DNA of 28,801 nucleotides, from positions 1 through 28,801 of the IMG/VR virus record IMGVR_UViG_3300035206_000598, one strand, 5' to 3'. Shown here piece after piece: positions 3,864 through 25,100 of the stretch (positions within the stretch are counted from its first letter, which is position 1; each line of letters begins with the position of its first letter). Below the pieces are notes generated by a model. It searched no databases. It saw only the letters and a program-made list of their open reading frames with translations, and had not been told where the DNA came from. Origin of the DNA: a virus. The position numbers and the translations under genes are program-made.

Positions 3864-3880
3864 TATTCTTTCCTATCAAA

Positions 3881-3889
3881 TATTTATTA
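3881..3889 (-). promoter_or_regulatory. Late-type promoter variant TAATAAATA upstream of short fibre
   Basis: Minus-strand TAATAAATA ends 17 bases before the ATG at 3863, close to the 19-20 base spacing of the AGATAAATA copies. It is one of few motifs in the 36-base gap after the giant gene. The call rests on position and similarity to TATAAATA. The sequence is so AT-rich that chance is possible. Confidence 0.35.
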
Positions 3890-3899
3890 AATTTATATG

Positions 3900-6800
3900 C
3901 TATGCCAAGGCATTTCCTGGACGATTCTTAAAGAAGATTGCCTGCGGTGATACTGAAAAATATATACCACCATATTCAACATAATCAGAATCAACATAAT
4001 CAGCATCAACATATGCCGCCGGATCCCATGTAGTTTCAGTATCGTATGTCAGTATGTTATTAACATCACCACTAAAAATTGCTATACCATTAGCATGGTC
4101 TTGGGCACTAGTAGTACCAGTTCCTCGACGACAATGTAACAATTTATTATTTACTATATCAATATCTAAATATTCAACTCTTTCACTGCCAATGAATACC
4201 ACACCAGGTGTTGTATAACCAGTTCCTAGCGAATTTAAATATGGTTCAGGCAGTACTTTTGCATCTGTAACACTGATCTCAGTATCTAATTTTGTTATAG
4301 CCGTTGATGCTGTTGTCTTTGTAGCATTTGGCAGAGCATAATATTTTGTCTCTCCATCAGCATCATAATATATTCTAAAACTTATTGATTCTGTTACGCT
4401 ACCTAAAATATAATGATTATTAGTTTGTACTGTGATTTGTAAACCTTCCTTACTACTAATTGGTATTAATTCATCTGGCCATTGTTCGTGCGTTGGGCGA
4501 ACATATCCTTTGCTATCCCTGTCTTTCCTGTCTATAGATAAATTAGGAATACCTTGTTGATCAAAATCACCAATAAGGAAATCAGGATCGTGAACAGGAC
4601 GTTTAGTTATATCATAATTTGCTGGTTCAGGCTTACCATAATATTTTTGACCAATGACATATGGATATGCCGGCGTATTATTTTCATCTACTGTAACATA
4701 ATATGCATATATACCACCTGGCTTTTCTGGTGTTGACGCAAATCGGCCGTTGTACTCATCTAAATCGCCCAGTCCGGCAACATATTCATAATCTTCATAA
4801 TATGTACCATCATAACTACCAGCTGGTATCGTGGTTTCGCTCCCTATTGCAACCCTGGTACCTGTTTTTAATCTATAACTTGACCGTACTTTTCGTAAAA
4901 TATTCTTAACTGTAAAAATTATAATAGTTCCACTTGCAGGAGCTGTACCAAATGTTATTTGGCTCTTTTCACTTCCGGTGGCACCTGTATATGTAAAATC
5001 AGTTGTAACAGTCTGTTCTACACCATCAACTAATATTTTTATAAAACTATCGTGCATCATTGATGTATTATATTCAGGGCCTGATGGTCCATTAAAAACT
5101 GTTGTAGTGCCGTCGCCAATATAAGATGTACTTGGGTAAACATTTGGACCATAAATTGGAACTCCATCCCATGCATAACCTAACAACGGACTATGCTCAT
5201 TAATAACATCATTATAAATCCCAATTGGATTGGCATAATAATGATATGTGCCATATAAATCAACTGCGCCTCCGTGTTCGTCTCTCCATCTCCAATAAAA
5301 TTTTTCTGTTCCAGGTCCATAGCCTGCTGTACTTCCAGCAGTATACATAGCATCATAATTCCAAACACCATCATTGCCATGACTATCTCGAGTTTTAGTA
5401 CTATATAAAACTACACCATTTCTTAATAATGCAATCGGACCTTGCGGTATTTTCACTTTATCTGCTGTAGGTGGTACACTTACTTCACCAGGTATGTTCC
5501 ATGTCATGTTTTGATGTATAATTACATTTGGATTATTTTCATCTAAATGAGGCCAATTGATATCATACCAATTTGATGGATGATCCGGTATACCGCTTGC
5601 TGTTACATAAATAAACTTTTTAGTATAATGAACTTTCTCTACACCTGCTTTTGTTACTGAATTATAAATATGCCAACCAATCCTATCATTACCATATTCT
5701 GCTGTAGCTTCTACTGCAAAATTTGGAAATTCTGGAAACATAACAGGTAATGTCTGTCCTTGATCCCATTTTAATAATGTTTTGCTGAAACCATCTTCAA
5801 CAACCGTATAATCCCACGGCTGACTATCCCAGCCCCATTCTTGCGGCATCGGCGAATCATTTTCAAATGTTGTTAAATCAAATCGTTCACCATCTTCGAT
5901 TTCAATTTTAGATGTATCATAAAATGCCTCGTACACATTCTCCAATAACAACCTTTGTAAATTGTCATATTCCCTAATAAAATTATTAATTTCTATTCCT
6001 GCTTCGGATGCAGGGCCGGCTCCTAAATCCACAGCATCAATTTCACTGTCAAAAGAATAATTTTGTCCTGTCCTTAAAACAGCATTAATATCATAATCAT
6101 ATCTTTGTACTGCGGCATGTACTGTTAATGTTAAATCTTCATGATAACCATTTGCTAACTTATAATACACATCAGCACCTTGTAATTGATCATATGTTAT
6201 TATTGTGGATCCTGATAGTTCATTAGCAACAATTATTGGATGATTTTTAATATTATCAGTAACTGTTAACTTCATAGTTGCCAATTTGGCAAGATCTGCG
6301 CTTGTAGCACTAGAATATTTTACAATACGCTGTGATGCATGATCATCAGGACTACCGAGAACCAAATCACCTACTGTTGTTCGAGTATTTAAATCTGTTA
6401 TAGCAGTACGCCTGCGTTGTGCATTCGTAAACTCCATTTCATGATGCACTGTACGTGAATCTACCCCTACATTACCGGTGGTTACATATGTTTTTGCCTG
6501 TAAAATATTATTATCAACTCTATCAAATACTAAACTAATCTTAGATGCCCGTAATAAATTAGTATCCGTATGGTTATCTAAGTAATCTTTATAAATTCCG
6601 GTTTGTAAAATTTCATCATAGCTCGGATGTACTCCGGTTAATAACGGTTGTACTTTACCAGTATTACGATTATAATACGGTGGATTATCAAAATCAGTAA
6701 TATGTGATTTTGCAATGTCTAATTCTAAATTTTTAATACCCCTAAATTCTCTAACTTTTGATGTATAAGGTTTAATTTCATTAATATACTCTTGCAAATG

Positions 6801-9800
6801 AGGCAAAAGTTCAACTTTAAAATTAGGAAGCTGCTTAACATTATCTTCGGCCGAAGAAATATTTAAATATGAACTCTTGAGTATCCAATCTACATCACCT
6901 TGCTCCGAAAGAACATATGATATCATACCAAAGAATATTTCATTTATTCTAACCAGCCAATCAATTGTAAAAACATTATTAAAAATAGTATCGATAATAG
7001 TACGAAAATCAGTACTTTGCGCCAACGTAAATGTATCTGTATACGCTATTGTTTCAAAGTTTATAGTCTGTTTTTCTGCACCTATTTTTAAGAATGTTTT
7101 TGTAGCAAGGACATACTTATAAACACGCCATCTATTTGTACCATCATTTTCGACTTTTACAATATCACCATCAAGCAACCCGGTTAATAATTTTCTTTTT
7201 GCTATTGTATCTACTGTATATTTAATTACAGTATCGGTAGAATATCCAGTGGCCCACCAATCAATATAAGTTATAAATTGATTATTATAAACATTAATAT
7301 CCCATCCTGTTTTATCATCATTAACCGGTAATGTTGTTAAAATTGCATTCATTAAAACAACAAAATTCTTTCTTGCTAATTTTACATTTTTAAACCACGT
7401 TTGTCGCGGACGATATAATGTACCATATCGCATTTCTTCATGCAATATAGTAGTATCAGGTATTGCTAATCCTGTTTTATCATATCCTACTAAACTATCA
7501 ATCATTTTATTAATAAAATAAAGAGGTATAGTACTTCGCGAATCATCTTTTCTCAATAAAACCCATTGCTTATGTATATTCCCTTCATCTTTTTTTACTT
7601 TATATTCTAACTGTAATCGAGAATCTTCTGCTGTTATTAAATGATCAATGTTATTAACAACCATTGCGCCGCCGGGCTTTCTATAAGTTATTTGCAATAT
7701 ATCACCTAAAATTGCCGGAGTAGTTAATATAATAGATTGTATCGTGCCGTTCGCTGATATAACACCGTTGGAATATGTTACCTTAATACCATTAAGCCTT
7801 ACAGCTGCAATGAGCGACGGATCTATGCCTACCGTAGAAATAGTCTGTGAAGCACCTGCAACAGTAATAACATCATCTACTCTTTCATAATAATTACTAA
7901 TTGGAGCATACCATTGTGTATTTTCCAAAGTAGATATATATGTTGCAACACTACTTGCGCTTCGTAAACGCCAGTCAACATTTGGTATAGTTGTTTTATT
8001 TTTTACCCAAAAGTAATAATTCGTTACAAATTTACTTGTAGCAAGATCCCATTCTTCAACTTGACTATACTGTGCTATACTTTTAACTGTACCAGTACCT
8101 GTATACTGTGACGGTTCTACTGTACTTTTCACCCATTCATATATATCAATACTCGACCCGGGAAACATTTGATTCCAATACTTTCTGCGATATCTATTGT
8201 CTCCTTGCTCTGCATCATAAAACTTTACTGTAGATATATCCCACCAAAGGTGTCCTACTTGCCTACTATCCCATAGAAGATCTTCATTCACTAATGAACT
8301 AGCATCATCGCTAACAGTATATCTTGCAGGATCTCTATTTAATTTATATGAAATCTCAGTATCTGCTAACCCACTAATAATACCTTTTGGAAAATCTAAC
8401 AACGACAAGTCTGCATCAACTGCTTTTTCATTTGCATCAAACAATGTAGCAACATCAAACAGTGCCGAATTAATTCGCTCTTCTTCAGTTCTATGTGATT
8501 CAAACCATGTATCGAAACTAGTAATATCAGTAAAACCAGTATTTACTTCTAAACCTGTTCCAATAATTGCATCAACATTAATAACTGGTGTATTAGTTAA
8601 CAACGGCAAATATGTAATATCGCCCTGATTAACAATTGCTATTTCCTCAACCGGGCCTGCTATGTTTGCAGTTGCAGATGCACCGGCGCTTCCTCCTCCA
8701 GTAAATACTACAGTCGGAACTGATGTATAGTTACCTGGCTCTTCTACTGCTACACTTGTAACAACACCCGAAATAGTCGCAGTTGCGGTTGCTTGCCGCG
8801 GAGTGCATCCGCCGCCACCGCCATATGCAGGAGCATCAATTTTTAAATCAGGGGCGGCCTGAAATGTATCACTAATTGTAACATCAAGAGATTTTACTTT
8901 AAACAATAAATCTAATGTTAAACCTGTTCTACCTGTTGAAGGAGACGATGTTGTTGCACAGTTTGTATGTGACGGTAATACGGTATAGTCGCCGCCATCA
9001 GTGATTGTTATACCGGTAACCGAACTAATTGGTACTATCGTGATCACCGCTACAGCACTTGATCCACCACCGCCAGTAAAGGTAACCGACGGTGCTGATG
9101 TGTATCCATCTCCTGCAAGAGTTATTGTAACACCAGTAACTATGCCTGTACCAACATCAATTGTTGCCGTTGCTGTTGCTGTTGTACCACTTGTAGGCGG
9201 ATCTATAGTAACAGTCGGTGCTGATGTATATCCAGAACCTGGATTAGTTACTGTTATACTATTAACTTCCCCGACACCTACCGATGAAACAGTACCTGTT
9301 GCAGTAGTACCTGTTCCGCCTGTTACCATTATTACATCATTTACTGCATAACCTGTGCCTGGCGTATTTACAGTCATTCCAACACAACCGCCATCTGTAC
9401 CAACTTCCATATGTACTGCTACTGTTGAGTCATCATCCCTAATTCCTTTACCGGCTGATACTACTAACTTACCTGTGTGGGGGGAATTAAATGTTGCTGT
9501 TAACTCATTAATAGAAGTATGTGTAATCGTTGGAAAATCATAGTTACCTTTAATATTATAATGCTTATCAGCAGTATTAGCTGAGAATACACTACCGCCG
9601 GATACAATTGCTTTACCTGCGGTTGCTGTTGGGAATGTTATAGTTAAATTATTATTATCAATATATTTAATAGCAGGATTATCATACAATCCTTTAATAT
9701 TATAATACAATTCTGATTGTCCATTAAATGTAGTACCTTCAGATATAATTGCTTTACCTGCTGTTGCTGTTGCAAATGTAATTGTTAATGTATTAGCATC

Positions 9801-12800
9801 CACAAATGTAATAGTAGGTTGATCAGATAATCCACTTATACTATAATATTTTGCAGGATCAATTGTTACGCTATAATCTCCAGATTGTATGCTTGCGCCC
9901 AATACTGCAACATCAACATTTACATATGTATTATTTAAATTATGTGTAATAGTCCAAGTAGTTGCAGCTGTTGCTTCTGTATGAGCAAAACTATTACTCG
10001 CACTTACAGAATTATTAACTGCTACATAACCTGTTTTAGTTACACCTGTTGGGAATATAACTTTAACATTATTAGTATCAGTATATTCAATTAAAGGTTG
10101 ATCTAGTGAAGACCTTGCAGATATATTATTATTATATATAACATCTACATTTGCAATATCTTGTCCTAAACTATGTGTAATTGTCCATGTGTTTGCAGCC
10201 GATTGCAAACCACTAACAAAATCTGAATCGATAACAACTATTTTACTTATAGTTGCTGAATCATTATATGTTATTGTTAAATTATTAGCATCAATATGTG
10301 TAACTTGTGCTTGGTTATATGTATTATGAATTATGTTATTATTATTATCAACTAATTCTACATTAACGTACTGCTTATTTAAAGCATGATTAATAGTAAA
10401 CAAAATATTTCTATCGCCCAAATCAATGTTATTACCTAGCATTGCTACATCAACAACAACATACTTCTTACCTAAATTATGATTTACATTCCATGTTGTT
10501 GCGGCAACGCCAACATTTGACGTGTGTTCATGGCCATAATTAGGTGAAACACTATTATCATCATTATGTGTAACTACTACATAACCAGATTTGGTTACAC
10601 TAGTTGGAAACATAACTTTAATATTATTAAGATCGGTATATTCAATTAATGGATGATCATATCTACCAATAGCAGATGTGCTATCATTATATATAATATC
10701 TACATTAGCAATATCCTGATTCAAACTGTGTGCAATTGTCCAAATGTTTGCAGTTGATTGCAAACTACTTGTAAACCGTGGTTTAATTACACTAACTTTA
10801 TCTATATTTGTAGCACCACCTGTTATTCTTAAACTAGTTGTACTAAAATAATCAATAGAAGCTTGTTCATAGATGCTACTAACTAAATTATCTGCGGCAT
10901 CAATAAGTGCAATATTAACATATTGCGAGCCTAAATTATGTTGGACTACGGCCCAATTACCTAAGCCGGCCATATCTAAATTAGCACCCGGAAATGCTAC
11001 GTCAACATTTACATGACGTTTACCTAAATTATGCGTTATTGTCCATGTTGATGATGCTGAAGTTTGACTATGGGTATAACCTGTTCCAGGAGTTGCGCCT
11101 GGGACATAATTATCACTATATGTTACAGCAACACGACCAGATTTTTCAACACCAACAGGAAAAACAATAGTAAGATTGTTTGCATCTGTATATTCTATTA
11201 ACGGATGACTATAACGACCGGTTGCACCTTTATCATCGTTATATATAATATCAACATTAACATACTGTTGCCCTAAATTATGTGCAACTGACCACATACG
11301 TGAATTTGTAATTAGTGGGCTAACAAACTCAGATTTAATAACATCAATATATCCAGTAGTTACTACTCCATTCCAATCTACAGTTAAATTATTAGCATCA
11401 ACATATGTAATTATCGGTGCTCTATATTCGGGCCCTATAGACTTATGCAAAAAGTCAAAAAGTTCTAAATTAACATATTTCTGATTTAAATTATGTTCGA
11501 CGTTCCAAATCTTACCAACAGAAACAAGAGATTCATATACTTCAACGCCCGGTAAATTTTGATAACCTGCTCCTGCATCTGTAATATTAATACTAACAAT
11601 TACTGATTGTATTACTGAGCTTGCAACCGCAGTCGAAATCTTACCGCCTCCTGAGAAAGAAACAGCAGGAGGACTTGTATATCCAAGGCCGCCGGCGGTA
11701 ACAGTTACATCTTTTACACCATATTTAATTTTTGTAATTTTACCAACTGGTTTTATTTTTGTTTCTGTTAAAAATGTATCAATAGTAAATGTCTTATCAA
11801 TATCAGAAGGTGTATAATTATTACCACCAGTTGCTATTGAAAGCAAATTTAATCCATAATGGTCTTTAAGATCAACAAGTTTACTTACTAACCAACCATT
11901 TGGTACATTATCCACCCAAACAAGATCCAATACACTATAAAAAGTTTTATTTGTTTTTACATCATTAAATGCATCAACTTTTGTAGCAAACCTACGGAGA
12001 TGCCAATATTGTATTAGATTTGAACTATCGGCAGTACTTTCTTCAAAATCATCAATAACAAATATACCTTTCTTTTTAATAGCCATCGAAACAGTAAAAC
12101 TACCGGATCCAAATATACTACCCGAAACAGTAGATATTATAACATTTCCTGCTCCTGCTACAATAGTATTATAAGGGCCAATATTATTTGTATTATAAGT
12201 TCCATTAATAGCTATAAACCCAGGTAATATACTATTTGCAGTACCTGTATCTCCTACTTGAATTTCCGTCGGCGATGGCGACGAAATTACAGTAAGTAAA
12301 AAGTCTTTTATAAAATCACGATCAGCGGCAACTATATCATATATTGGTATTTCATTAACATTAGTTAAGGTTGTTACATCGTTGGTATTCAAATCAATTA
12401 TAGTAACTATACCGCTACGAATATCAATTCCTTTATTTACATACACAACTTGTTCTTCGACAACATAGCCACCAGCTATACCTATAACAGTATTATTTTC
12501 ATCTGTAACATTAGTTAATACTACAACATCATTATCTTTAAATGGATGAGATTGTACAGGACTTGATATTAACGATGATGTTTGTGCTTTTAAACCAAGT
12601 CCAGGTAACGCTGTTCCTGACACATGCAATGACGAGCCATTATATTGCAATTTTAAATTACCATTAACATCAGTATCAGCAACAAAATCTTCATCTGTGA
12701 TAGCTTCATTTATATCTTTAATCACATCATCTATCATTATTACCCGATTATCAACAAATGATACTTCGTTATTTTCGTCATCTGTAAAAAATAATGCATT

Positions 12801-15800
12801 ATATGCGTTGCCAACACCTTTTGCTACTTCGATCCTGCCTGCAAATTCACCAGTAAATGTAATTTCTTTTTCTTCTGAATTTAATGTTATAAAAACATCA
12901 GGTATATTTGCAGAAACTAAATCATTATATATTTCATTATATGTTAAATCATTATAATACAAGTTACTTTCTATACCAACATCGCTATCAAACAATGTTT
13001 GTTTAGTATCAAATGTTAAACTACTATTTGTAGTGGTTAATTGCAAATAGCCATTATGGCTCGATGCTGTTACATTTGGTACATTAGCATTAATATTACC
13101 AATGATGCCACCCATATAAGATGCATCAGGGCCTGAATCAGTTAAAGTATCACCAGTTACAAACTGTATAGTTGTACTGTCAATTTGAATCTCTGAATCT
13201 ATAGTAACGTTTGGATTAAAAACTTGACCAATAACCGTCAGCGGACCAACCGGTATTGAAGAAAACACAACCTGAGTTTCACTCGTTGGTGTTCTAACAT
13301 AAATACTCTCGTCTTTACGAACCAAATTAGCATTTGCTACACTAACATACATTGTTGGTATTTCTGTTTCAAACGACGACGAACTTAATGTTATACTAAT
13401 CGGTTCATTACCATCAAGTGATACAAATAGCTTATCACCTACTTTTGCTGTAATTGCCGATTCCTCTGTTGTGGCTGCGGCTGTTGTCGATAGAGAACTT
13501 GTTATAGTAGGTATAACTTCGTCTACAACATTAATTTCTGTTTTTCCTGTACTTAATAATTGGCTATGCTGGACTTTTAAATTTGTTTCAACTAACTTAT
13601 ATACACCGAATTCATCATTGTTTATATCAGCAACATGAACAACCGAACCAACCGAAGGCTCAATTGTTGCTTGTGCTACAGTGTTTAATGCAGCTAATGC
13701 CTTAGCATTAAATGCTCGATAAGTAATATCTTCATTATGTACATATCCAGCAGTTGGCAGCCATGTATCTTCAGTATAACCGATTGGTAACTTTGGCCAA
13801 ACTTGTGTCTTTGGCAATGTTGGCTTATTAACCCAACGAGAATCATTTATATAATTTATTTGAATTAAATCATCTGTTAAAAGATCAATATTACTATCTT
13901 CATACGTAAACTCAATTAATGGATTTTGTACTCTGACATCATTTGCTTTTAATTGGAATTCATTTTTTGTGTTATTAGCAATAGCGCCAAAGTCACCAAT
14001 TTTAAATGCATACTCTTCAAAAACCGACATATTATTATTAGCAAGTTTCGAGTTACGAAGCAGTTTATTAATACTTTGTATATTACCTTTTTGTCGAAGC
14101 ATACCTTGAAAAAATTCAAAAGATATATTTTCATCTTCAGTAATATTATCTAAATAATCTCGTTGTTGGTATCCAAATAAATGCCTTGCACTATCTAATA
14201 ATGTTTCTGTAACTGGTACATCATGGATTTTAAATAATTTTTGATAATCACTTGCAGTTGTATCAAAATTTGGTATAATTGTATCGCCTCGAACAATATA
14301 GCCATCTGCTCTTAGTGCACCTGTCCAATTTCCAGTTTTTACAAGATTTAATTTTAATCTGTCCTGCCGTAAACGCAACAATGGATCGTAAATCAAATCA
14401 TTAAAATCTGTTATATTATCAAAAATAATAGAATGTTCGCTTTTATATGGATTTAATTTTAAACCATAAATGCCAATACCGTTAACATTATTAACAATAA
14501 AATAATCATTTTCTCGTTTAATATCTAAATCTCTGACAGGCATTGCAATACCGTCTTTATCAACAATGCTATATGTAGCGTTAATAACTTCTCGTATAGT
14601 ATCAATACGCCCAATGTTTGTAGTATTAATTTTAACCTTATTAGCCGCCGGGCTTAATGATAAAAATGTACCAACTTCCCAAGTTGACATCTGTGCCCAA
14701 AATAAAAACTCTTTTGCAGAATATTCCCAATCTGTTATATCCTCCACTTCGCTATCATACTCATCAAATATAAATCCTAAAGATTCTAAATATTTTCCAT
14801 ATGAAAGAAGAAAAGTAAATACATCTTGAACTGTTTGAAATTCTGTTCCATATGGTATTTCAGCAAGTACATCATAATGTTCACGATATCGATTAACTCG
14901 TATATTACCAACTTCTACAACATCATATGTTCCAGTATCAATACAAGGTATAAATCTAAAATTAGCATTAAAAGAATCAAAACCTGAAACAGAATAACCT
15001 GTTTCAGTAATAGCAATCTTAACTCCACTATAAACACGTATTCCTTCACTATATCCATGATATAGTAAAATAGTTTTATTTTCTTCTGGTATAAAAATAC
15101 TATTAGATGTTCGTGTCGTACTATAACTAGCTGCTATTGCAGTTAAATTATTACTAACAAAACCGCCGGCTTTATAACCCAATGCAACGCCTGCTGTTTT
15201 AAAAACATCTAATATTACATTTGTATATTCCTTACTCTCACTTGAAAGATGAGAATAAATCCATGGTTGATATCCATAAATTATATTCGCATCAGCATAA
15301 AATTTAAAATCTTTTAATCTTTTTCTTTTGCTAGTGTCTTTAAAAATTACTTGCTTCTTATTTGCTAACGCCCTGGTAAAATTTAATGTATCCCATGCTT
15401 TTGTACAATATTCAGCCGGCCGAGTCAAATATAATAATTTATTTAAAATCCATGGCCAAACAACATTAACATGTGCATTATATTCAGCAGGACCAACGTC
15501 ACTAAACTGCCATGGCAAATGTCGATCGGCAATATGCGGAACAGTATATTCACCAGCAATAATCTTCGTCGATGCTAGGCCAAAAATTCCTGCTTCAACA
15601 GGATCTAATAATTTACCTAAATGATCAACCGGAATAACACTACTTAATCCTACTCGTCTAAACGGATTATCAGTTAAATAACTACCATCTATATAATTTT
15701 CTCGGGGGCCGTTACGAATAATTCCATTTTCTAAATCATTCCATAATGCAGTATTAGTATTACTATAATCAGTTCCATATGTTGCAACCCACCACGATGG

Positions 15801-18800
15801 CCTAATACCAAAGCCAAGCATTTCCCATGGCCTTGTATGTGGATTAACAGTATCATAATAATCTAAATAAATGCCGCGCCAATTACCAGATACTGTTTCG
15901 CCATCTTTATCTAATTCTTTACTATAATTCCATGTAAACGGTAAACTTTCATCATACGTACGATGTGTTATTAAATCTATATCATGCTCGACGCACCAAC
16001 GTTGAACAATAGGCTCAAGTATCCGATTAAATTCAAAACGTGAATAATCACTTGTTCTAAACTTACCAGGCGCAACCTTAAAATAATTTACAATTGGCAA
16101 ATACTCTTTTATAAATCTATCAGAGATAGCATTATACATTCTTTTTTCAAGTTCTAATAATGCATCATCTCTATGATCTCCAAATAGTAATATTCGAGAA
16201 CCGTCGTGCCCTTGAATAAACTTTCGATCGGCGCCAACATATGTATCATCTGTTAACACATGTGGAAGATATACAGAATGCATTCCTACCATACTTGGAG
16301 TAAGTGGAACAAATGAATTTTGTATATCTTCGAAAATACGGATTTCTACAGCTGAAGATCGTAATACTGTATCCTTAAAAGTAATTCTAGTTACTGACGC
16401 ACCAAATTCATTTATTGTTACATCAATTGTATATTCAATATCTTTTAATAGCAATACCGGTGCTTTTCCATCAGTACGATCTTCAGGTTTAGTAAGATAT
16501 ACATATACTATTTTTTCTCTATTATCTAATTGTGCATCAGTAACTAGTCCTCCCTCTATATCAATATATGTAATATTAAATTCTGGGTAAACAATCTGTT
16601 CTTTATAATTAGTACCGTATGCAAATGCGTGTGTTTCTGTAAATATTTTTAAATTACTTCGATACGAATACATATCTTCTAAAACCGTATCAACAAATTT
16701 GCTTATATCTACGGTATCTGTTTGTGTACCATAATATTCTGCTCTTTGCAAAAATTTTGCTTTAAACGCTTCGTATTCGTGCTGATTATATCGTATGCTT
16801 GAAACGATGTCAAAGCTGTTATTATCAGCTAACAAAACCATCATAGGTAATAACGAACTTTCGTGTTGTAGAATTTTTGTACCTTTGCTTCTGTCTTTCG
16901 CTGTATCTCGATAATTGTTTATACCTATTTCATTACCAAGTATGCCTGTTTGTGCTTTTATAATTGATGAAAAATGTCCTTGCAACTCACTTACTGTAGC
17001 TTCATTAATATCTAAATTATCAGGATTTGCTTCCAAATTATCAGGAATTTCATAATAATGATTATCGTTAATATTAACAAATGTTTTTGTATTTGCACGA
17101 ACTTCTATAACTTGTTTTGCTGAAATTATTTTATTTGTTACAAAAGTTAGTACCCTATTTACAACATTATAATCATAAGACCTTGTTGCAGTTGATTGCT
17201 TTGCTTCAACACCATCAACTGTAACAATAATATCGGCTAATCCTCCAGTGATCACCGGCGTAACATTTAATGTATATATTTGATCACCTGTGTTACTAGC
17301 AATAAATGTTTCAGTAACCAATTGCTTACTATATGCATCTGTAGGATTCCATCCATTTACAAATATAGATATCATTTTATCGTTCGGATCGGATCCCGAA
17401 CCAGATAAATTATATTGATTAGCATACTTATAACCATTAACATTATCAATTGTATCTTCAAAATTATTAATAAAAACAATGTCGGCGGTTTGACCAAATT
17501 CTTTATATTGTAGTGCTTTACCTATATAAGTATCTGCTATGCCACTAGTGGCTGTTTTATAACTAAAAATCTTACTACCAGCAAATGTACTGTTAGAATA
17601 TACACTTGTATCATCTAATTTATTTTTATCTGAATCATATAATTGATACAAAGGTTCATCATTTTGCTTATCTTTAAGTTGCGACAATTTCCATTCAAAT
17701 CCATTCCAATAAAATTCTCGGCCTAAATAATATTTTCCCTTTATAGCAAAAACTTTCTGGTCAGGTTTTACAGTTGTTGTTGGTGTCAATACACATGTAG
17801 CACCTGTAAATGAAACCGTAAATATTGTTCCAAATGCGCTCGATCCAGCACCTACTGTTACATCCCAATCACCTGTTGCTCCTGATGGCATATCTGCATA
17901 TGGCCCTGGTGGTGTTTGAACACCTAACGGATGCGAGCCAGGATCCCAATTATCTGCATCCCATAAATTAAAATTTAATAATTTATCATTTAAAAAGATA
18001 ATAGTATCGCCGGCTTTTAATGTATAACTATCAACAACAGGATTTGTTGCACCATGTACATCATCATATTTTGTTACACTTGCAATAGATACACTACCTA
18101 TACCTTCTAATCCATATCTGTATAATTCTAAATCATTATCAAATTCAATAATAGGTCGTTTGGCTTGGCGCAAACTATCTAACGAAAATGTCTCAGATAA
18201 TACATCCAACGACGCATCCCATTTTGTACTATCATACGGATCTGTTCCTAAATCCCATGGATGCAAAGTTTCTTTTGTAAATATTCCGCCTGTTACAGCA
18301 CCAGTAACTTGTAAAAGAACATCTTTATGATACCAACCATTTGTTCTGCTCCATGCATTTTGATTTATCGCACCCCGCTTAATAGTAACATAATCTATGC
18401 GTTGCTCTAATGGCGTAGCTTCGCTAATAATAGTACCAGCCCAAACTACTTCGTCCCAAAAATCACTATCCCATGGGTGTTCTGTTTCACTACCCGGAAT
18501 CATATAAGGCAATGTATGATTAAAATCATCACTGTTTACATCTATTAGTTGAATACTTGTGCCTACACCTTCAACAATAAATTCTTTATTAAGGTATGTC
18601 GTTGGTGTAATATTAGCACCACCAAATTCTATTTTCATTCCATTAGAAAATTTAATGCCATTTGAAGCCGTAAAAGATGCCTGTCCTATTACATCAGTTG
18701 TAACAACAATTGGTGCTGACAACGGTGCAGTAATTTCTATTTTAACCGGTCCATTATCATACCAATAATAATTTTCATAATTAATAAATTTATCCATATC

Positions 18801-19166
18801 AATAGGCGGTGCCCATGAATATGCTTTTGATTTAAATAATCTATCTTGATTAGAAATATTACTACCTGCAACAGACAATAATTTTAAAACGTCATCATAA
18901 AAAAGTACGTTAGTAATATCAGCAGTATCAACATCTTTAATAGTTAAAACTGGTTCAAGCTGATAATTTTCTCTACTTTGATCAACCTCAGGGAAATAAA
19001 AATCATTTTCAAAATCATGTACACCAGGGATTTTACGACCAACGAAACCTGCAGCCCGAATTACATCTTCTTCATTAAACCATTGGTCTACTGTGTTTTT
19101 AAAAAACTTATCAAGAACATCAGTCTGATGTATTGCTGGTAATTTTTTAAATACTCTTTCTTTCAT
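3900..19166 (-). CDS. Giant baseplate-associated structural protein, 5088 aa, YHYH-type domain
   Basis: This is one open frame of 15.3 kb. Position straight after gp6 suggests a gp7-like baseplate wedge role, but T4 gp7 is only 1032 residues, so homology is unproven. The N-terminus (residues 1-140) has LPAIHQTDVLDKFFKNTVD, GFVGRKIPG and DKFINYENYYWY, a signature of very large marine T4-like phage proteins. Residues ~1-2500 are mostly non-repetitive. About 2500-3510 is a repeat cassette: Gly-rich GxGYTSxP units, three tandem trios of W-x-I-x-H-N/S-L modules, then more Gly-rich units. About 4630-4680 is a YHYH-type domain (GTYHYYANPIGIYND, then GYAWDGVPIYGPN) with the fourth motif residue Tyr rather than His. 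About 4953-5038 is a module also found inside the gp5-type protein. The ATG is two bases after the gp6 stop (TAATAATG) without a clear Shine-Dalgarno, implying translational coupling. Confidence 0.82.
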   Translation of the reverse strand: MKERVFKKLPAIHQTDVLDKFFKNTVDQWFNEEDVIRAAGFVGRKIPGVHDFENDFYFPEVDQSRENYQLEPVLTIKDVDTADITNVLFYDDVLKLLSVAGSNISNQDRLFKSKAYSWAPPIDMDKFINYENYYWYDNGPVKIEITAPLSAPIVVTTDVIGQASFTASNGIKFSNGMKIEFGGANITPTTYLNKEFIVEGVGTSIQLIDVNSDDFNHTLPYMIPGSETEHPWDSDFWDEVVWAGTIISEATPLEQRIDYVTIKRGAINQNAWSRTNGWYHKDVLLQVTGAVTGGIFTKETLHPWDLGTDPYDSTKWDASLDVLSETFSLDSLRQAKRPIIEFDNDLELYRYGLEGIGSVSIASVTKYDDVHGATNPVVDSYTLKAGDTIIFLNDKLLNFNLWDADNWDPGSHPLGVQTPPGPYADMPSGATGDWDVTVGAGSSAFGTIFTVSFTGATCVLTPTTTVKPDQKVFAIKGKYYLGREFYWNGFEWKLSQLKDKQNDEPLYQLYDSDKNKLDDTSVYSNSTFAGSKIFSYKTATSGIADTYIGKALQYKEFGQTADIVFINNFEDTIDNVNGYKYANQYNLSGSGSDPNDKMISIFVNGWNPTDAYSKQLVTETFIASNTGDQIYTLNVTPVITGGLADIIVTVDGVEAKQSTATRSYDYNVVNRVLTFVTNKIISAKQVIEVRANTKTFVNINDNHYYEIPDNLEANPDNLDINEATVSELQGHFSSIIKAQTGILGNEIGINNYRDTAKDRSKGTKILQHESSLLPMMVLLADNNSFDIVSSIRYNQHEYEAFKAKFLQRAEYYGTQTDTVDISKFVDTVLEDMYSYRSNLKIFTETHAFAYGTNYKEQIVYPEFNITYIDIEGGLVTDAQLDNREKIVYVYLTKPEDRTDGKAPVLLLKDIEYTIDVTINEFGASVTRITFKDTVLRSSAVEIRIFEDIQNSFVPLTPSMVGMHSVYLPHVLTDDTYVGADRKFIQGHDGSRILLFGDHRDDALLELEKRMYNAISDRFIKEYLPIVNYFKVAPGKFRTSDYSRFEFNRILEPIVQRWCVEHDIDLITHRTYDESLPFTWNYSKELDKDGETVSGNWRGIYLDYYDTVNPHTRPWEMLGFGIRPSWWVATYGTDYSNTNTALWNDLENGIIRNGPRENYIDGSYLTDNPFRRVGLSSVIPVDHLGKLLDPVEAGIFGLASTKIIAGEYTVPHIADRHLPWQFSDVGPAEYNAHVNVVWPWILNKLLYLTRPAEYCTKAWDTLNFTRALANKKQVIFKDTSKRKRLKDFKFYADANIIYGYQPWIYSHLSSESKEYTNVILDVFKTAGVALGYKAGGFVSNNLTAIAASYSTTRTSNSIFIPEENKTILLYHGYSEGIRVYSGVKIAITETGYSVSGFDSFNANFRFIPCIDTGTYDVVEVGNIRVNRYREHYDVLAEIPYGTEFQTVQDVFTFLLSYGKYLESLGFIFDEYDSEVEDITDWEYSAKEFLFWAQMSTWEVGTFLSLSPAANKVKINTTNIGRIDTIREVINATYSIVDKDGIAMPVRDLDIKRENDYFIVNNVNGIGIYGLKLNPYKSEHSIIFDNITDFNDLIYDPLLRLRQDRLKLNLVKTGNWTGALRADGYIVRGDTIIPNFDTTASDYQKLFKIHDVPVTETLLDSARHLFGYQQRDYLDNITEDENISFEFFQGMLRQKGNIQSINKLLRNSKLANNNMSVFEEYAFKIGDFGAIANNTKNEFQLKANDVRVQNPLIEFTYEDSNIDLLTDDLIQINYINDSRWVNKPTLPKTQVWPKLPIGYTEDTWLPTAGYVHNEDITYRAFNAKALAALNTVAQATIEPSVGSVVHVADINNDEFGVYKLVETNLKVQHSQLLSTGKTEINVVDEVIPTITSSLSTTAAATTEESAITAKVGDKLFVSLDGNEPISITLSSSSFETEIPTMYVSVANANLVRKDESIYVRTPTSETQVVFSSIPVGPLTVIGQVFNPNVTIDSEIQIDSTTIQFVTGDTLTDSGPDASYMGGIIGNINANVPNVTASSHNGYLQLTTTNSSLTFDTKQTLFDSDVGIESNLYYNDLTYNEIYNDLVSANIPDVFITLNSEEKEITFTGEFAGRIEVAKGVGNAYNALFFTDDENNEVSFVDNRVIMIDDVIKDINEAITDEDFVADTDVNGNLKLQYNGSSLHVSGTALPGLGLKAQTSSLISSPVQSHPFKDNDVVVLTNVTDENNTVIGIAGGYVVEEQVVYVNKGIDIRSGIVTIIDLNTNDVTTLTNVNEIPIYDIVAADRDFIKDFLLTVISSPSPTEIQVGDTGTANSILPGFIAINGTYNTNNIGPYNTIVAGAGNVIISTVSGSIFGSGSFTVSMAIKKKGIFVIDDFEESTADSSNLIQYWHLRRFATKVDAFNDVKTNKTFYSVLDLVWVDNVPNGWLVSKLVDLKDHYGLNLLSIATGGNNYTPSDIDKTFTIDTFLTETKIKPVGKITKIKYGVKDVTVTAGGLGYTSPPAVSFSGGGKISTAVASSVIQSVIVSINITDAGAGYQNLPGVEVYESLVSVGKIWNVEHNLNQKYVNLELFDFLHKSIGPEYRAPIITYVDANNLTVDWNGVVTTGYIDVIKSEFVSPLITNSRMWSVAHNLGQQYVNVDIIYNDDKGATGRYSHPLIEYTDANNLTIVFPVGVEKSGRVAVTYSDNYVPGATPGTGYTHSQTSASSTWTITHNLGKRHVNVDVAFPGANLDMAGLGNWAVVQHNLGSQYVNIALIDAADNLVSSIYEQASIDYFSTTSLRITGGATNIDKVSVIKPRFTSSLQSTANIWTIAHSLNQDIANVDIIYNDSTSAIGRYDHPLIEYTDLNNIKVMFPTSVTKSGYVVVTHNDDNSVSPNYGHEHTSNVGVAATTWNVNHNLGKKYVVVDVAMLGNNIDLGDRNILFTINHALNKQYVNVELVDNNNNIIHNTYNQAQVTHIDANNLTITYNDSATISKIVVIDSDFVSGLQSAANTWTITHSLGQDIANVDVIYNNNISARSSLDQPLIEYTDTNNVKVIFPTGVTKTGYVAVNNSVSASNSFAHTEATAATTWTITHNLNNTYVNVDVAVLGASIQSGDYSVTIDPAKYYSISGLSDQPTITFVDANTLTITFATATAGKAIISEGTTFNGQSELYYNIKGLYDNPAIKYIDNNNLTITFPTATAGKAIVSGGSVFSANTADKHYNIKGNYDFPTITHTSINELTATFNSPHTGKLVVSAGKGIRDDDSTVAVHMEVGTDGGCVGMTVNTPGTGYAVNDVIMVTGGTGTTATGTVSSVGVGEVNSITVTNPGSGYTSAPTVTIDPPTSGTTATATATIDVGTGIVTGVTITLAGDGYTSAPSVTFTGGGGSSAVAVITIVPISSVTGITITDGGDYTVLPSHTNCATTSSPSTGRTGLTLDLLFKVKSLDVTISDTFQAAPDLKIDAPAYGGGGGCTPRQATATATISGVVTSVAVEEPGNYTSVPTVVFTGGGSAGASATANIAGPVEEIAIVNQGDITYLPLLTNTPVINVDAIIGTGLEVNTGFTDITSFDTWFESHRTEEERINSALFDVATLFDANEKAVDADLSLLDFPKGIISGLADTEISYKLNRDPARYTVSDDASSLVNEDLLWDSRQVGHLWWDISTVKFYDAEQGDNRYRRKYWNQMFPGSSIDIYEWVKSTVEPSQYTGTGTVKSIAQYSQVEEWDLATSKFVTNYYFWVKNKTTIPNVDWRLRSASSVATYISTLENTQWYAPISNYYERVDDVITVAGASQTISTVGIDPSLIAAVRLNGIKVTYSNGVISANGTIQSIILTTPAILGDILQITYRKPGGAMVVNNIDHLITAEDSRLQLEYKVKKDEGNIHKQWVLLRKDDSRSTIPLYFINKMIDSLVGYDKTGLAIPDTTILHEEMRYGTLYRPRQTWFKNVKLARKNFVVLMNAILTTLPVNDDKTGWDINVYNNQFITYIDWWATGYSTDTVIKYTVDTIAKRKLLTGLLDGDIVKVENDGTNRWRVYKYVLATKTFLKIGAEKQTINFETIAYTDTFTLAQSTDFRTIIDTIFNNVFTIDWLVRINEIFFGMISYVLSEQGDVDWILKSSYLNISSAEDNVKQLPNFKVELLPHLQEYINEIKPYTSKVREFRGIKNLELDIAKSHITDFDNPPYYNRNTGKVQPLLTGVHPSYDEILQTGIYKDYLDNHTDTNLLRASKISLVFDRVDNNILQAKTYVTTGNVGVDSRTVHHEMEFTNAQRRRTAITDLNTRTTVGDLVLGSPDDHASQRIVKYSSATSADLAKLATMKLTVTDNIKNHPIIVANELSGSTIITYDQLQGADVYYKLANGYHEDLTLTVHAAVQRYDYDINAVLRTGQNYSFDSEIDAVDLGAGPASEAGIEINNFIREYDNLQRLLLENVYEAFYDTSKIEIEDGERFDLTTFENDSPMPQEWGWDSQPWDYTVVEDGFSKTLLKWDQGQTLPVMFPEFPNFAVEATAEYGNDRIGWHIYNSVTKAGVEKVHYTKKFIYVTASGIPDHPSNWYDINWPHLDENNPNVIIHQNMTWNIPGEVSVPPTADKVKIPQGPIALLRNGVVLYSTKTRDSHGNDGVWNYDAMYTAGSTAGYGPGTEKFYWRWRDEHGGAVDLYGTYHYYANPIGIYNDVINEHSPLLGYAWDGVPIYGPNVYPSTSYIGDGTTTVFNGPSGPEYNTSMMHDSFIKILVDGVEQTVTTDFTYTGATGSEKSQITFGTAPASGTIIIFTVKNILRKVRSSYRLKTGTRVAIGSETTIPAGSYDGTYYEDYEYVAGLGDLDEYNGRFASTPEKPGGIYAYYVTVDENNTPAYPYVIGQKYYGKPEPANYDITKRPVHDPDFLIGDFDQQGIPNLSIDRKDRDSKGYVRPTHEQWPDELIPISSKEGLQITVQTNNHYILGSVTESISFRIYYDADGETKYYALPNATKTTASTAITKLDTEISVTDAKVLPEPYLNSLGTGYTTPGVVFIGSERVEYLDIDIVNNKLLHCRRGTGTTSAQDHANGIAIFSGDVNNILTYDTETTWDPAAYVDADYVDSDYVEYGGIYFSVSPQAIFFKNRPGNALA
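4050..4312 (-). other. DTEI/SE/NKLL/RG module near the giant's C-terminus
   Basis: Residues ~4953-5038 of the giant. Landmarks in order are LDTEISV, a proline, IGSERVEY, NNKLLHCRRGTG, a histidine in DHANG and a closing SGD. The same landmarks appear in the module within the gp5-type lysozyme domain (DTEILV, VSSEWISW, NKLLGVKRGLYG, KHIKG, YGE). I recognise the general pattern as a small beta module of marine phage structural proteins but know no assigned function. Confidence 0.6.
8640..9400 (-). repeat. Glycine-rich GxGYTSxP repeat region of the giant
   Basis: Encodes residues ~3255-3510, several degenerate units of the form GSGYTSAPTVTF-TGGG followed by an alanine/threonine strand (for example ATATATI) and a V-T-x-V strand. 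Units differ in length and have diverged in DNA. Unit boundaries are approximate. Such units probably form beta-strand turns in an elongated structure. Equivalent units occur in the gp6-type protein. Confidence 0.75.
9545..11525 (-). repeat. Tandem W-x-x-x-H-N-L modules of the giant, three trios plus two partial units
   Basis: Nine modules, each starting with a pattern like TWTITHNLGKKYVNVDV, form three trios of three distinguishable types. Type A ends in IELID-like and VIKS-like strands. Type B has IIYN, PLIEYTD and SGYVAV. Type C has VDVAxxG. Trios span about 11525-10966, 10965-10416 and 10415-9880, each near 550 bases. Two shorter units beginning YNIKG follow, then HMEVG. Module boundaries were placed by eye. 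The type-B copies still share long stretches of DNA identity, for example around 10728 and 10171, implying fairly recent duplication. Confidence 0.8.
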
Positions 19167-19168
19167 TA

Positions 19169-22100
19169 TTATCTAATCTTTAAATTTTGTTCCGTATATC
19201 CTTTGACTACTTCGACATTATTAACATTAGCAACACTTAAAAACAACTCATCGGGCTCTGCTTTTACTTGAAACAAATTACCAAAGTTACTCTCTGCTTG
19301 CGTTGGCACAATAACTATACTACTAAGATGTGACGATAAATTCTGATGAATATATGCTGCCAGTTCAGTATAATAAAAGCTCTCACCAAGATCCCAATTA
19401 TCTATACTAAAGAAATCATTTGTAACCGATACTACTCGACTTCGTAATTCATTGTCACTTAATGTACTTCCTATTACCTTGATAATTTTAAATGTTGCTT
19501 GTAAACTGCTCTGAGCATCAGCACCAAACAATAATTTAAACTTAACAGGTTTATAAATTATCTCATCACTAATACTTTTATAAGTGCTTAAGGTATCCAT
19601 AGAAACTGCTAGCTCCGCCGTTGTTGGCTCAATTGGAAATTCGCCAATTGAACTATTATTTGCCTTCCACGAAAGAACATTTGTATAATATGAACGAGTT
19701 AATACAAATATATCAATAAGATTTGTTGGGCTTGGGTCTACACGCTGATCAATAGGCGCATAATGCTTCCATTGGAAAAATACATCTTCGGCTGGATTAT
19801 CTATAATAGCCGAGGATGTTATAGTAGGTGTAATATGTGTACTACGTCCAACATATGCTTTAAATTTTATTGTACCATCTGTGTCGTTTACCAATAATGT
19901 TGCAGTATAAGGCGATGTTGTACTAATTTTCTTAAACTCTTTTGTGTCAGATCTATAAATATACTTTCCTGCATAATCGGCGCCATTAGATAAAATTATA
20001 TTTTCTTCTGTTTGATTCACTGCTTCCAAAACATTCTTAGTTAATTTATAATAAACATATCCATCAAACTCGGTATACGTTTCTTGAAATATATGCCTAT
20101 TAGTATTTACAAACCGATCAAAACTTAAAGGATCATCAGGTACCATGTCATTGTCAGAATCATAAAATGTTATCAATGCTTTTTTAGGATCTCGATAGCC
20201 GTCTTCATATGTCAACAAATTAGACATATTAAATTTAATATCATTGGTAAAATTCTTTGTACTTCTAATAGAAATTGTACCTGTTGCTGTTAACCCAGGA
20301 CTAGGAGGATTACCAAATGTAACAACATCGGTTGCCGAATACCCACTACCAGCATCTGTAATTTGTACACGACTAACAAATCCTTTTACCATAATCTGAC
20401 TTGCGCCAGCACCGCCAGTAGTTGTTGGGTAAGTAAAAAACGGTTGCCCTGTATAACCATATCCTGTGTCAGTAATTTCTAGCGATCGAATAACACCACT
20501 TGGTTCAATAGTAATATCTGCGGCATTATCAGCGGCTGTATATCCAGTACCACCTTGTATTATATTAATTGCAGATATATTTCCTGCAGAATTTACATAA
20601 ACTTCACCTGTAGCCGTTACTGGAGTAACTCCCGAAGGAGGACTTGACGGTGCCGGAAATGTTATTGCTACAGGTGCTGGATCTGTTTCCGGAGGTGTAC
20701 CTGGCGTATAGCTAGTACCGCTATTTGTAATTGTAGTATCAACTACGCTATTTGATAATGTGGCAGTAGCAGTAGCACCATTGCCGCCTCCTCCGGTAAA
20801 ACTAATAACCGGATTAGAACTATAACCACTACCAGGGTTATCTACATTAACCGCAGTTACTTCACCAATAAGTGACGGGGCTCCTGTTGCAGTAGTTTTT
20901 GTTCCACAGGTACCAGCTGGTGCACCTATTGTTATTGTAGGTGTAGTTTGATAGCCTTCGCCTGCAGGTGACAACACAACAGATTTAACTTTAAAATTAA
21001 GATCAAGAGTTAATCCTATACCTACTGACCCGGTGGCTCCTGTTGTAATGCAACTAATAACAGTCGGTAATACTGTATAATCACCACCAGTTGTAAAACC
21101 TGAGGTGGATGCAACATCCATTGTAAAGTCTGCGGCGCCGCCGCCTCCTAAATTAGCATCTGCAATTGTAATAGTATCATCAACTTTATGATTGTTGTCA
21201 CCGCGTGTAACAACAGTAACAGATGTAACTGCACCGGTACCATCAACAGTAATGTCAAATGTACCTACTACACCCGTTCCAGATGTCGAGCCGGTTACAC
21301 CAGTATATGTTCCTGCTGTTCTTAATGCATCAGCTGCACCAAATGTATCCATGCTCCTGTGACCGCCATAAAGTCCTGTGACTGCACCTGCTGAAACCGA
21401 TGCAATGGTAACTGTTGCAGATGTTCCTGTGCCACCTATAACTGTATAAACTTTACCTACATCACCAGAAACAAAACCTGTTCCCCTACTATTAATTATT
21501 ACTGGCGGACAATCTGAAGGTACAGTAATATCATCACCAACTTCCATATGTGGTGTACCAACTGCTTGTACTTGACTGCCATGTAATTCACCATGTGTAA
21601 TAATAGCTTTACCGGCTGTTGCTGTCAAGAATTGAATAGTTAAAGTATTTTCATCAACATATGTTATTGTTGGGTAATCATATAATCCTTTAATATTATA
21701 ATACAAAGTAGGTGATATTGTTGCAGTATAATCTGCACCTGATTCGAACATTGCACCAAGAACTGCGATATCAACATGACAATGCTTCATACCTAAATTA
21801 TGTGAAACCGTCCAAGTGGTTGCCGAAGATGTTTGTGTATGTAAATAACCATTGCCGACTGCTCCGTCATTACCAGCACTGTTATGTACTAAAGCATAAC
21901 CCGACTGCGTGACACCAATAGGAAATATTACACGGCATTGTGTTTCTGATGTATATTCGATCATTGGATAATTTTCTTTGCCTTGTAAAGACACATTTGC
22001 AGAATCAACAATATCAATATTAACTATCCCATCTGTTCCTATTAAATTATGTTCTATTATCCAAATATTGCTTGCCGGAATTAATGTATTAAAACCATAT

Positions 22101-25100
22101 CGTGATTTAATAATATTAACATAACCAGTTGTTGCGGTATTCCATGCAATTGTTAAACTATTTGCATCTGTATAAGTTACTGTAGGTGCATTATAAACAG
22201 TACTCATCACTTGATGATTTGCATCTATAATTTCAAAATTAACATATTGCTGATTAAGATTATGATTAACTGTCCAAGTACTTCCTATATAACCTGGCGG
22301 GTCTATATATACTGATGGTATATTTTGATATCCACCGCCGTGATAACCAGGCGACCCAAAAGTAAAACCTGTTAATGCTTGTGATATAATAGCAGTAGCA
22401 GTTGCTTGTGTACCCGAACCACCAGGTGCAGATATATTTACTGTTGGCGACAAAATATAAAGTGTGCCGCCGGCGGTTACTGTAATAGCACCCACTGCAT
22501 CATTTGCTAATATTATAGTAGCTGTTGCATTTGTAGAAAGATTTGCTTTTAATTGTATCGATCGCCCATTACTAGCCAATACACCATTATTATTAATAGA
22601 TATTTCAGTTTGATTACCGCTTGAATCAACTACATTACTATCTAAATATGTCAATGCATTATTAGCTGGTACGTATCCAACTCCACCGAGGCCGCCTTCG
22701 ATTACATTCCATGACAAGGATGATATTGCAGTTGCTTCTTCAACTTCGCCGGATGCACTAAAAGTTACTACGGGTGCAGCTTGATATCCAGAACCAGGAT
22801 TAGTTAATGCTACATTATCAATTTGTGCTCTCTTATCAATATTTACTTTTAACAATGCAACTAAATCTTTTTTTGCTTGCCCTGTTTTAATATCAATTGT
22901 TTTATATGCATTATTAAAATAAAATCGTACATCTTCCTCACTTTCAAAAATATATCTTAAACCGCGAGTAGTTATAAGGTATGTAGCATCTGTAGCCGAA
23001 GTGGCTGCTTGATATTCTGCTTTAATAATCCAACTTGCATCTTTATTATCACTTGTATTATCCTGTGCAAATGCCTGACTATATGCAGTACTTGTTAACT
23101 CTAAATTGTTCGGAGATATAACATATAAAGAAGATGATTTATAATCAAAACCTATACCAAATGTATTTTTTAAATCAAGTTGTGCAGTAATACCAACTTT
23201 TTCAACTTGATTAAATATACGTCTAAATGTTGGGAAAAACTTTGTTAATATATAACCATGTGGTATTTCCTTATTTAATTCTATCGGACCTGCTGTCCGG
23301 CCGAATGGATCACCATTATTAATAACATTTTCTATAGTAGCATATTCGGTAATAGTTCCGGTTGAATCAGTAAATTCTAGCAAACATTTTTCTATTAAAT
23401 ACGCACGTTTACCACTGGCTATAGAACCTATAGCCATCGAATTACTAAAACTAAAAGTAGTTTCATTTAATACAAAATAACCTTTATTATGTAATTTAGC
23501 CTGAGGCAATGTTACCCATTGCAATTGCTCAGTTGTTGTAAGTTTCCATGCCGATACACCATCAATACGCTGTATTTCCTTTCTATATGTATCATAATAA
23601 AAATTTGTTAATTCATCTAAACTTAATTGGGGTTGTAAATACCGCTGAATTATGCTATTGGAAGTTAACGATGCTGTTAAACTAAATGTTAATTCAGCAT
23701 TTTGCTCATCTTTATATAGCATACCATCATCAGCAAATACATTTAAATTTTGTACTGTGCCAGTTGGATCGTTTATATCAATATTTCTGCTATGCCCTGA
23801 ATGCGTACGATTGATTGCTTTCATTTTAAGAATACCCGAATTCTTAAACATTGGGTAGATATTATAATCCTCACCAGTAATCATTCGATCTTGTGTATAA
23901 AAAGTTCGAGATGCGTTTTCCTTAATAACACTAATAGGCTCTGATTCCAAACTATTGCCTATATTTGTTACTAACTGCAAAACAATTGATAATACTTGTG
24001 TTGCACCAGTTGCATCAACATATGAAAGTCGAATTGTTTGTAAACCAACATCCTCTGATTTTATAACTGCATTACTATTGGCGCTACTTCTATACCATAC
24101 ACGTATAATACCATACGGAATATCACCAAAATTACCATCAGAAAATCGTACAGAAATAGTATCATTCGCATGACTATTAACTTTAAATATTTTTCTTGTG
24201 CCTTCTATTATATTATTATAAACAACATTAGTACCAGAGATAGCAGGCACTTTTTCCCAATTATGTAAAACTTGTCCGGTGCTATTAATCGTTTGCACCC
24301 AAACATCAAATTCATTAATACCCGGCACATCAATGTCGAGTTCTCTGTTTGGCAATGGCGTTGCTACATCAAAATCTTGATATGCTAATGTTCCTTGTTT
24401 TGCATATCCAAAAAAGCCAGTATTAGCACTTCCGTTACCCAATCCATCATTTAAATAAAGAATACCAAAATTATCTGTTGGATTTGGTGCTACTTCTTTA
24501 ACATATAATTGATCATCAAAGATAGCATTTACTATCTCCAACGGATATGATCTTCCATTAACTGTTGCCGATAACGGATGAACAACTTTAAAATTATCAA
24601 CTACATCAACATGATAAACTTCAGTTGGAATATTATTAAGTGTTCCTTTTTTAACAGGAGTGCCAAATGGATTTTGCGTAATAAAAGCCTGATTTAATAT
24701 TAAAATAAACTGCTCTAAAAACGCAGTATTATTAGGATCATTCCATACAATAGACCTATTAGTCAAATTTGTACCATTACTATCAAATATTTCTTCTGTA
24801 GTTCTAATAGAATGAAACTTCAACATACCAGTTCCTGGTATATTTCTTTTTGGTGTATAATTCAACATATTTGCCAAACGCAATATACTTTCTTGGCGTT
24901 CGGCTGTGTCTAAAAAGTTTTCTCTAACATTTAAATCTTGCCTAAATGCGATGGTTTGCCCCATATATGCAAGTAATTCAACAATAGCAATAAATTCACT
25001 ACTTTCGATAAAATCATTAAAATCTTCTGGAAAATTATCTTGCAGATATTCAACCATTGCTTGCTTAATAGTATCAAAGTCATATGCAGTAAAATTAATT

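Follow-up and report, generated by a model that had tools for sequence, protein, structure and literature searches.

A module cassette shared by a gp6-like baseplate gene and the adjoining giant gene of a virus related to jumbo myoviruses

Two adjacent virion genes and the cassette they share

The IMG/VR virus record IMGVR_UViG_3300035206_000598, from an uncultured T4-like giant phage, is 28.8 kb long and presumably a fragment; the window analyzed here (28,801 nucleotides) covers all of it. Its major genes all lie on the minus strand, as do the features located below. Two of them are intact open reading frames (ORFs) separated by 2 bases: a gp6-like baseplate wedge gene encoding 2001 residues (19169-25174) and a giant virion gene in the gp7 position encoding 5088 residues (3900-19166). 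Both contain, in the same order, a cassette of glycine-rich units and of modules marked by the motif W-x3-HNL. We interpret this cassette as a single block of tail-protein modules, copied within one ancestral phage genome between gp6 and the giant adjoining it, a reading to which we assign a probability of roughly 0.8.

Identification of the smaller gene as gp6 draws on both sequence and neighborhood. Its product matches phrog_10646 (E 0) and phrog_219, and its nearest named relatives are the gp6 proteins of jumbo myoviruses of the PA5oct, SCTP-2, Atu_ph07, Phosso and GAP32/RaK2 types, at 36-42% identity (39-42% to PA5oct, SCTP-2 and Atu_ph07, 36% to GAP32). A conserved core, residues 1-778 and 1644-2001, is represented in 83 phage records at 80% coverage or more, and a profile of this core built from 8 sequences matches the PDB gp6 entry 9f4a (E 0.0087). 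The gene also adjoins gp25 (25180-25554, GPW_gp25 Pfam match). Core and neighbor together identify a gp6-type baseplate wedge protein (P2 J / T4 gp6). Alignment to the other jumbo phages ends at residue 778 and restarts at residue 1644, and since homology breaks and resumes in this way, the cassette of gp6 is an insert. It occupies residues 779-1643 (20246-22840), is missing from gp6 of PA5oct, SCTP-2, Atu_ph07, GAP32 and Phosso, and has a guanine-plus-cytosine content of 0.39 against 0.31-0.32 in the gp6 core.

The giant, conserved over residues 1-1755 and about 3545-5088, matches phrog_10938 (E 7e-286) and is homologous to the giants standing beside gp6 in PA5oct, Atu_ph07, GAP32, Phosso and RaK2. 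The gp25-gp6-giant order is kept in most of these jumbo phages, SCTP-2 having no giant beside gp6. In the cyanophages P-HM1 and S-SSM7 the giant directly following gp6 is annotated as gp7, and the window's giant shares with cyanophage gp7 a YHYH domain (Pfam, E 1.3e-25). A 12-sequence profile of its N-terminal 1760 residues found nothing in PDB at E values up to 1, and hence no solved gp7. We therefore use the positional name, gene order and the YHYH domain being what would make the protein gp7-like.

Comparison with these two groups of phages sets the cassette in relief. The jumbo phages PA5oct, Atu_ph07, Phosso, GAP32 and RaK2 share gene order and homologous cores with the window (SCTP-2 through gp6 only), and for PA5oct detection of both proteins by mass spectrometry is noted; their genomes, unlike the window, are devoid of any module trio of the kind described below, and their gp6 proteins measure 1154-1319 residues versus about 2000. 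The cyanophages S-SSM7 and P-HM1 likewise have a gp25-gp6-gp7 order, with gp7 proteins of 3007-4446 residues that include GxGY units, and the YHYH domain of P-HM1 gp7 is 44% identical to that of the window's giant over 136 residues. Their gp6 proteins of 616-624 residues, in contrast, are without the glycine-rich insert, W-x3-HNL modules are absent, and the N-termini of their giants have no detectable relation to that of the window's giant.

Within the gp6 insert, a first glycine-rich part with GxGY motifs (residues 785-964, 22283-22822; matches to phrog_460, phrog_701 and phrog_19630) is followed by three modules delimited by alignment and trees: A (965-1035, 22070-22282), B (1036-1118, 21821-22069) and C (1119-1206, 21557-21820), the last composed of a WTVSHNL half (21707-21820) and a YNIKG half (21557-21706). 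An HMEVG link (1209-1213, 21536-21550) leads to a second glycine-rich part (1214-1643, 20246-21535), which includes GGDYTVLP, GLTLDLNFKVKS and a Cys-containing stretch and matches phrog_708, 32294, 5342 and others. Inserted in this part is a unit of 80 residues, DTFGAAD...FTMDVAS (1276-1356, 21107-21349), with a weak match to phrog_4527 (short tail fibre); in the window it occurs in gp6 only.

The giant contains the longer version. Its first glycine-rich part, recognized by alignment to gp6 (residues 2483-2551, 11514-11720), precedes trio 1 (10959-11513: A1 11301-11513, B1 11052-11300, half-module C1 10959-11051), trio 2 (10407-10958: A2, B2, half-module C2) and trio 3 (9852-10406: A3, B3 and the first half of C3). 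Three tandem second halves, YSISG, YNIKG and YNIKG, then occupy 9420-9851, one belonging to C3 and two standing beyond it, before the HMEVG link (residues 3252-3256, 9399-9413) and a second glycine-rich part (3257-3530, 8577-9398) in which GGDYTVLP, GLTLDLLFKVKS and the Cys-containing stretch are colinear with gp6. C1 and C2 measure 31 residues each, and the Trp is gone from A2 (AVVQHNL) and A3 (FTINHAL). A complete module comprises about 60 residues, with a first half W...H.L and a second half PxIxYxDxNxLTIxF...GxaxV. Trp3, His7 and Gly55 are invariant in an alignment of 83 module sequences, from which A2 and A3 of the giant were left out. Apart from the Trp lost in A2 and A3, the window's modules show the W, H and G, each in its set position, that characterize phrog_21918-type modules, and the giant matches that family (E 7e-31).

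The homology of the two inserts is unambiguous. Residues 967-1578 of gp6 align to 2923-3613 of the giant and residues 893-1144 to 2483-2731, with identical order, so that about 600 residues of gp6 are colinear; the best alignment scores 315 bits, and the maximum among 200 composition shuffles was 53. At the DNA level the two genes are 62.6% identical over 697 bp and 80% over 105 bp. The 15-mer CCAACTTCCATATGT, which encodes HMEVG on the minus strand, has only two occurrences, at 9400 and 21537, where 0 are expected. Beyond HMEVG, three anchors follow in both proteins: GGDYTVLP (gp6 1363, giant 3391), GLTLDL (1387, 3415), extending in each as GLTLDL(N/L)FKVKS, and the Cys-containing stretch (1423, 3454). 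Because these follow the link in both genes, the resemblance is specific well beyond generic glycine repeats. A first-pass annotation, made from the letters of the window, had recognized both the common order of units and the short DNA identity at the links, and on these points it was borne out. Its account of the anatomy needed adjustment. The range it gave, 9400-22810, does enclose cassette sequence of both genes but cuts off the glycine-rich tail of the giant. Among the units it distinguished, the glycine-rich ones, A, B and C and the HMEVG link stand, but YNIKG is no separate unit, being the second half of a complete module C (compare SFVGRYDYPTITFVDANTLTLTF in other phages). Its count of one trio in gp6 and three in the giant holds, with the qualification that two of the giant's C modules are halves and two of its A modules have no Trp.

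Common origin, distribution and direction of copying

A common origin of the two arrays is established by trees that include 42 modules from other phages. For each type the gp6 and giant modules unite to the exclusion of all outside modules (support 100/98 for A, 100/99 for B and 98/91 for C), as is expected if a cassette was duplicated within a genome. Forcing gp6 A, B and C into a clade of their own costs 76 log units and is rejected by the approximately unbiased test (p-AU 0.00122). Since the types unite the genes and a separate gp6 trio is rejected, the cassette stood in both genes before the clade diversified, and has been inherited since. In trees with and without the outgroups, the rows within each type are arranged, across phages, largely according to gene and position; the copying is therefore not recent. 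The earlier proposal that a cassette was copied between the neighboring genes is thereby upheld, and the independent acquisition that it named as its own refutation is rejected.

In IMG/VR, modules are found in all six gp6 genes of the clade (the window, L007, L008, L016, L018 and L083) and in four of the four clade giants that could be read (the window, L007, L008 and L027); none occurs in 71 other complete gp6 ORFs outside the clade, of 1101-1508 residues, some of them near-identical. The gp6 insert is thus peculiar to the clade, and the survey of relatives that the first-pass annotation had suggested places the cassette in both genes wherever a contig covers the site. The contig of one relative at 59% identity (L084) stops before the insert site, and a relative of 107 kb has the module in gp6 and the giant and in no other gene. 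The whole genomes of eight named relatives contain no module; absence from the giant is well documented for these eight whole genomes only, the IMG/VR outgroup giants often being read in part. Against named phages, tblastn found nothing with the gp6 trio (E up to 1e-3), the giant array (1e-2) or the module consensus (1e-2), and relaxing the trio search to E 10 gave weak matches only, mostly to Rhodobacter phages, with a best E of 0.1. Nor was there a match for the gp6 glycine-rich part (1e-3) or the 80-residue unit (10), a result that is not evidence of absence, as the filter may mask glycine-rich queries. A trio alignment searched against GTDB genomes gave 165 pattern matches, 0 of them confirmed.

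The direction of copying would most plausibly be from the giant to gp6, judging from the sequences of relatives and from the trees. Glycine-rich units are usual in the gp7-position giants of relatives and almost absent from gp6, which is the stronger argument for the giant as the source: GxGY counts are 11 in Atu_ph07, 9 in Phosso, 7 in the contig L102 and 11 in P-HM1 gp7, against 0-2 in outgroup gp6, with 0-1 in the giants of GAP32, RaK2 and PA5oct. The same is argued by the resemblance of gp6 to a one-trio version of the array, its A being nearest to A1 (92/77), its B to B2/B3 (95/90) and its C to C3. The nesting of gp6 modules within those of the giant, a pattern the first-pass annotation had proposed to look for, is accordingly suggested, most clearly by module B, but goes no further, since trees that keep the giant modules of one type together as a clade are not rejected (p-AU 0.17 for A, 0.37 for B and 0.46 for C). 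That tolerance of the trees, together with the retention in gp6 of the simplest form, a single trio, leaves some room for the reverse course, in which gp6 acquired the cassette first and the giant took its copy from there, multiplying it afterwards. We consider this unlikely, though a good deal less so than the other alternatives taken up below, in view of the outgroup distribution of glycine-rich units and the placement of gp6 A and B. Copying between gp6 and the giant, in whichever direction, probably proceeded by unequal or illegitimate recombination between neighboring repeat-rich genes, after which in-frame units would have been gained and lost, and alleles reshuffled through homologous recombination at module borders.

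The module elsewhere and its possible role

Modules of the W-x3-HNL type are common in phage structural genes. Viral contigs gave at least 599 pattern matches and 56 confirmed loci, clade included, in tail-fibre, baseplate-wedge and virion proteins; carriage by a single gene is common. In 13 of 50 contigs outside the clade (about ten once near-copies are discounted), the module occurs within the fetched stretches in two or more ORFs, mostly side by side. Among unrelated contigs, L039, L045/L046, L052, L058, L059, L062, L063 and L078 have modules in two to five neighboring virion ORFs, the smallest carriers being proteins of 70-80 residues with little beyond one module. The same module, with its W/H/G signature, is found in the PHROG families phrog_21918, 30556, 34633, 28944 and 16122 and in the tail-fibre carriers phrog_6320, 5073 and 819; these are other proteins, however, and A, B and C of the clade form groups of their own. 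The module has no match in Pfam, NCBIfam or PDB, and a PDB profile search with 83 modules returned no credible relative.

Sharing of domains among phage tail proteins is well established (Smug et al. 2023, PMC10684548), and the present finding illustrates this known process clearly and in an unusually ordered form, overturning nothing. As in the mosaicism described there, which includes recent exchange, homologous domains occupy unrelated structural proteins such as tail fibres, spikes and baseplate components. Unlike those cases, a whole ordered block of modules is involved here, in two adjacent genes of one genome, with the copying placed on the stem of the clade. The interest of the case is that movement of an entire domain array between two neighboring virion genes of different function can be cleanly placed on a tree, in company with variation of array length within the clade and with what may be a tract of recombination at one module border.

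What the cassettes do can be addressed only tentatively. Because the module keeps company with tail fibres and has a wedge location, the cassettes are perhaps surface decorations of the baseplate wedge, built from a module that tail fibres employ as well. Their role might then be reversible contact with the cell surface, or spacing of fibres, and with a gp7-like giant the two proteins would stand close together. AlphaFold2 applied to gp6 residues 680-1707 with a five-sequence alignment gave a mean predicted confidence (pLDDT) of 33, and a second, single-sequence prediction gave 35; neither model is usable. In T4, gp6 forms the baseplate ring and shares one wedge with gp7, and gp8 touches gp10, gp7 and gp6 (PMC3004832). 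By that precedent the arrays would be neighbors if the giant is gp7-like, and like modules of the two proteins could pack together in the wedge and be selected as a pair; the retention of both copies in every readable clade member speaks for this. The first-pass annotation had raised both similar decorations and interlocking as possibilities. Unequal, variable trio numbers (3 or 2 versus 1) are unexpected under a fixed pairing, and single-gene carriers are common; we regard such interlocking as quite improbable. The broader proposition that the arrays form a matched pair, engaging each other or one shared ligand as a two-protein brush of modules diversified by trio number and border recombination, seems to us equally doubtful. 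Common in structural genes, often in two or more standing side by side, and with neither a Pfam entry nor a solved relative, the module would repay a first structure determination and a test of binding.

Continuing change and genomic surroundings

The cassette has continued to change within the clade. Trio number in the giant has changed, with three in the window and L008 and two in L027, which is without C2-A3-B3 and one second half. In more distant pairs, nonsynonymous differences (pN) fall well below synonymous ones (pS) in the cassette of both genes, and the protein sequence of the cassette is therefore under constraint. The window and L016 are near-identical over 6.5 kb, with 46 of their 56 gp6 differences concentrated in the 573 bases of codons 1039-1229 (window 21488-22060) and 10 in the 3114 bases of codons 1-1038. 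This step begins at the A/B border, where module B starts (Fisher p 1e-28, for a breakpoint picked after the data were seen), and is either a tract of recombination or the mark of a chimeric contig. The 80-residue unit, 240 bp of glycine-rich coding sequence, is found in frame at differing, non-homologous sites of the two genes: at 21107-21349 in the window, at residues 1414-1493 of L008 gp6, and at residues 3416-3495 and about 1188-1267 of the L008 giant. The window's copy is closer to an L008 giant copy (79% amino acid identity) than to the L008 gp6 copy (58%), and in its behavior the unit resembles a small mobile element that tail genes take up in frame.

Similarity of the two arrays could also reflect continuing gene conversion within each genome. 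The YNIKG halves are 66-77% identical in DNA between the genes of one phage, versus 74-89% between gp6 orthologues, with an unresolved tree, and the window's paralogues, at a synonymous divergence (dS) of 0.9-1.3, are about as far apart as the orthologues of the window and L008 (1.3-1.8), or a little less so, with both values near saturation. The A, B and C modules nevertheless cluster by gene and not by phage. The window's giant was also considered as conversion donor for the L016 step and was set aside, as trio 3 agrees with L016 at 17 and with the window at 11 of 42 differing sites, which is no clear preference. Recent conversion is not apparent for A, B and C; overall we give conversion about as little credence as interlocking, or slightly less.

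Several considerations weigh against our interpretation of one block copied between gp6 and the giant, or against its extensions. Low-complexity glycine-rich sequence can converge, and the specific parts of the cassette are confined to A-B-C, HMEVG and GGDYT-GLTLDL. Modules of about 60 residues yield many weak forks, the tree program warns of long branches, and clades of giant modules survive the topology tests reported above. The L016 step could come from a chimeric metagenome assembly, its breakpoint having been chosen post hoc. The giant is likened to gp7 by gene order and one common domain, its N-terminus matching nothing in PDB; and with both structure predictions unusable, function is deduced from context. 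Separate acquisition of the cassettes from different phages, or growth of each gene's own trio by internal duplication, might be entertained for so widespread and mobile a module (50 contigs outside the clade carry it), but is very improbable given the union of A, B and C across genes, the cost of a separate gp6 trio, the colinearity of the non-module parts HMEVG, GGDYT and GLTLDL, and the finding of no such trio in named phages or GTDB genomes.

Upstream of gp25 on the minus strand, a gp5-type hub/lysozyme gene (25620-28322) encodes a protein with a phage-base-V OB domain and a C-terminal phage lysozyme domain, in the manner of T4 gp5. Three fibre-like or unknown genes complete the set of major genes. 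One of them (206-2077) encodes a fibre-like protein of 623 residues, of which residues 464-574 match phrog_6427, a family of unknown function, with a sub-threshold Pfam match to BppL_N. A fibre-like gene encoding 297 residues contains a 54-base repeat in three copies (3350-3583), with the repeated motif YYTDARADARI.

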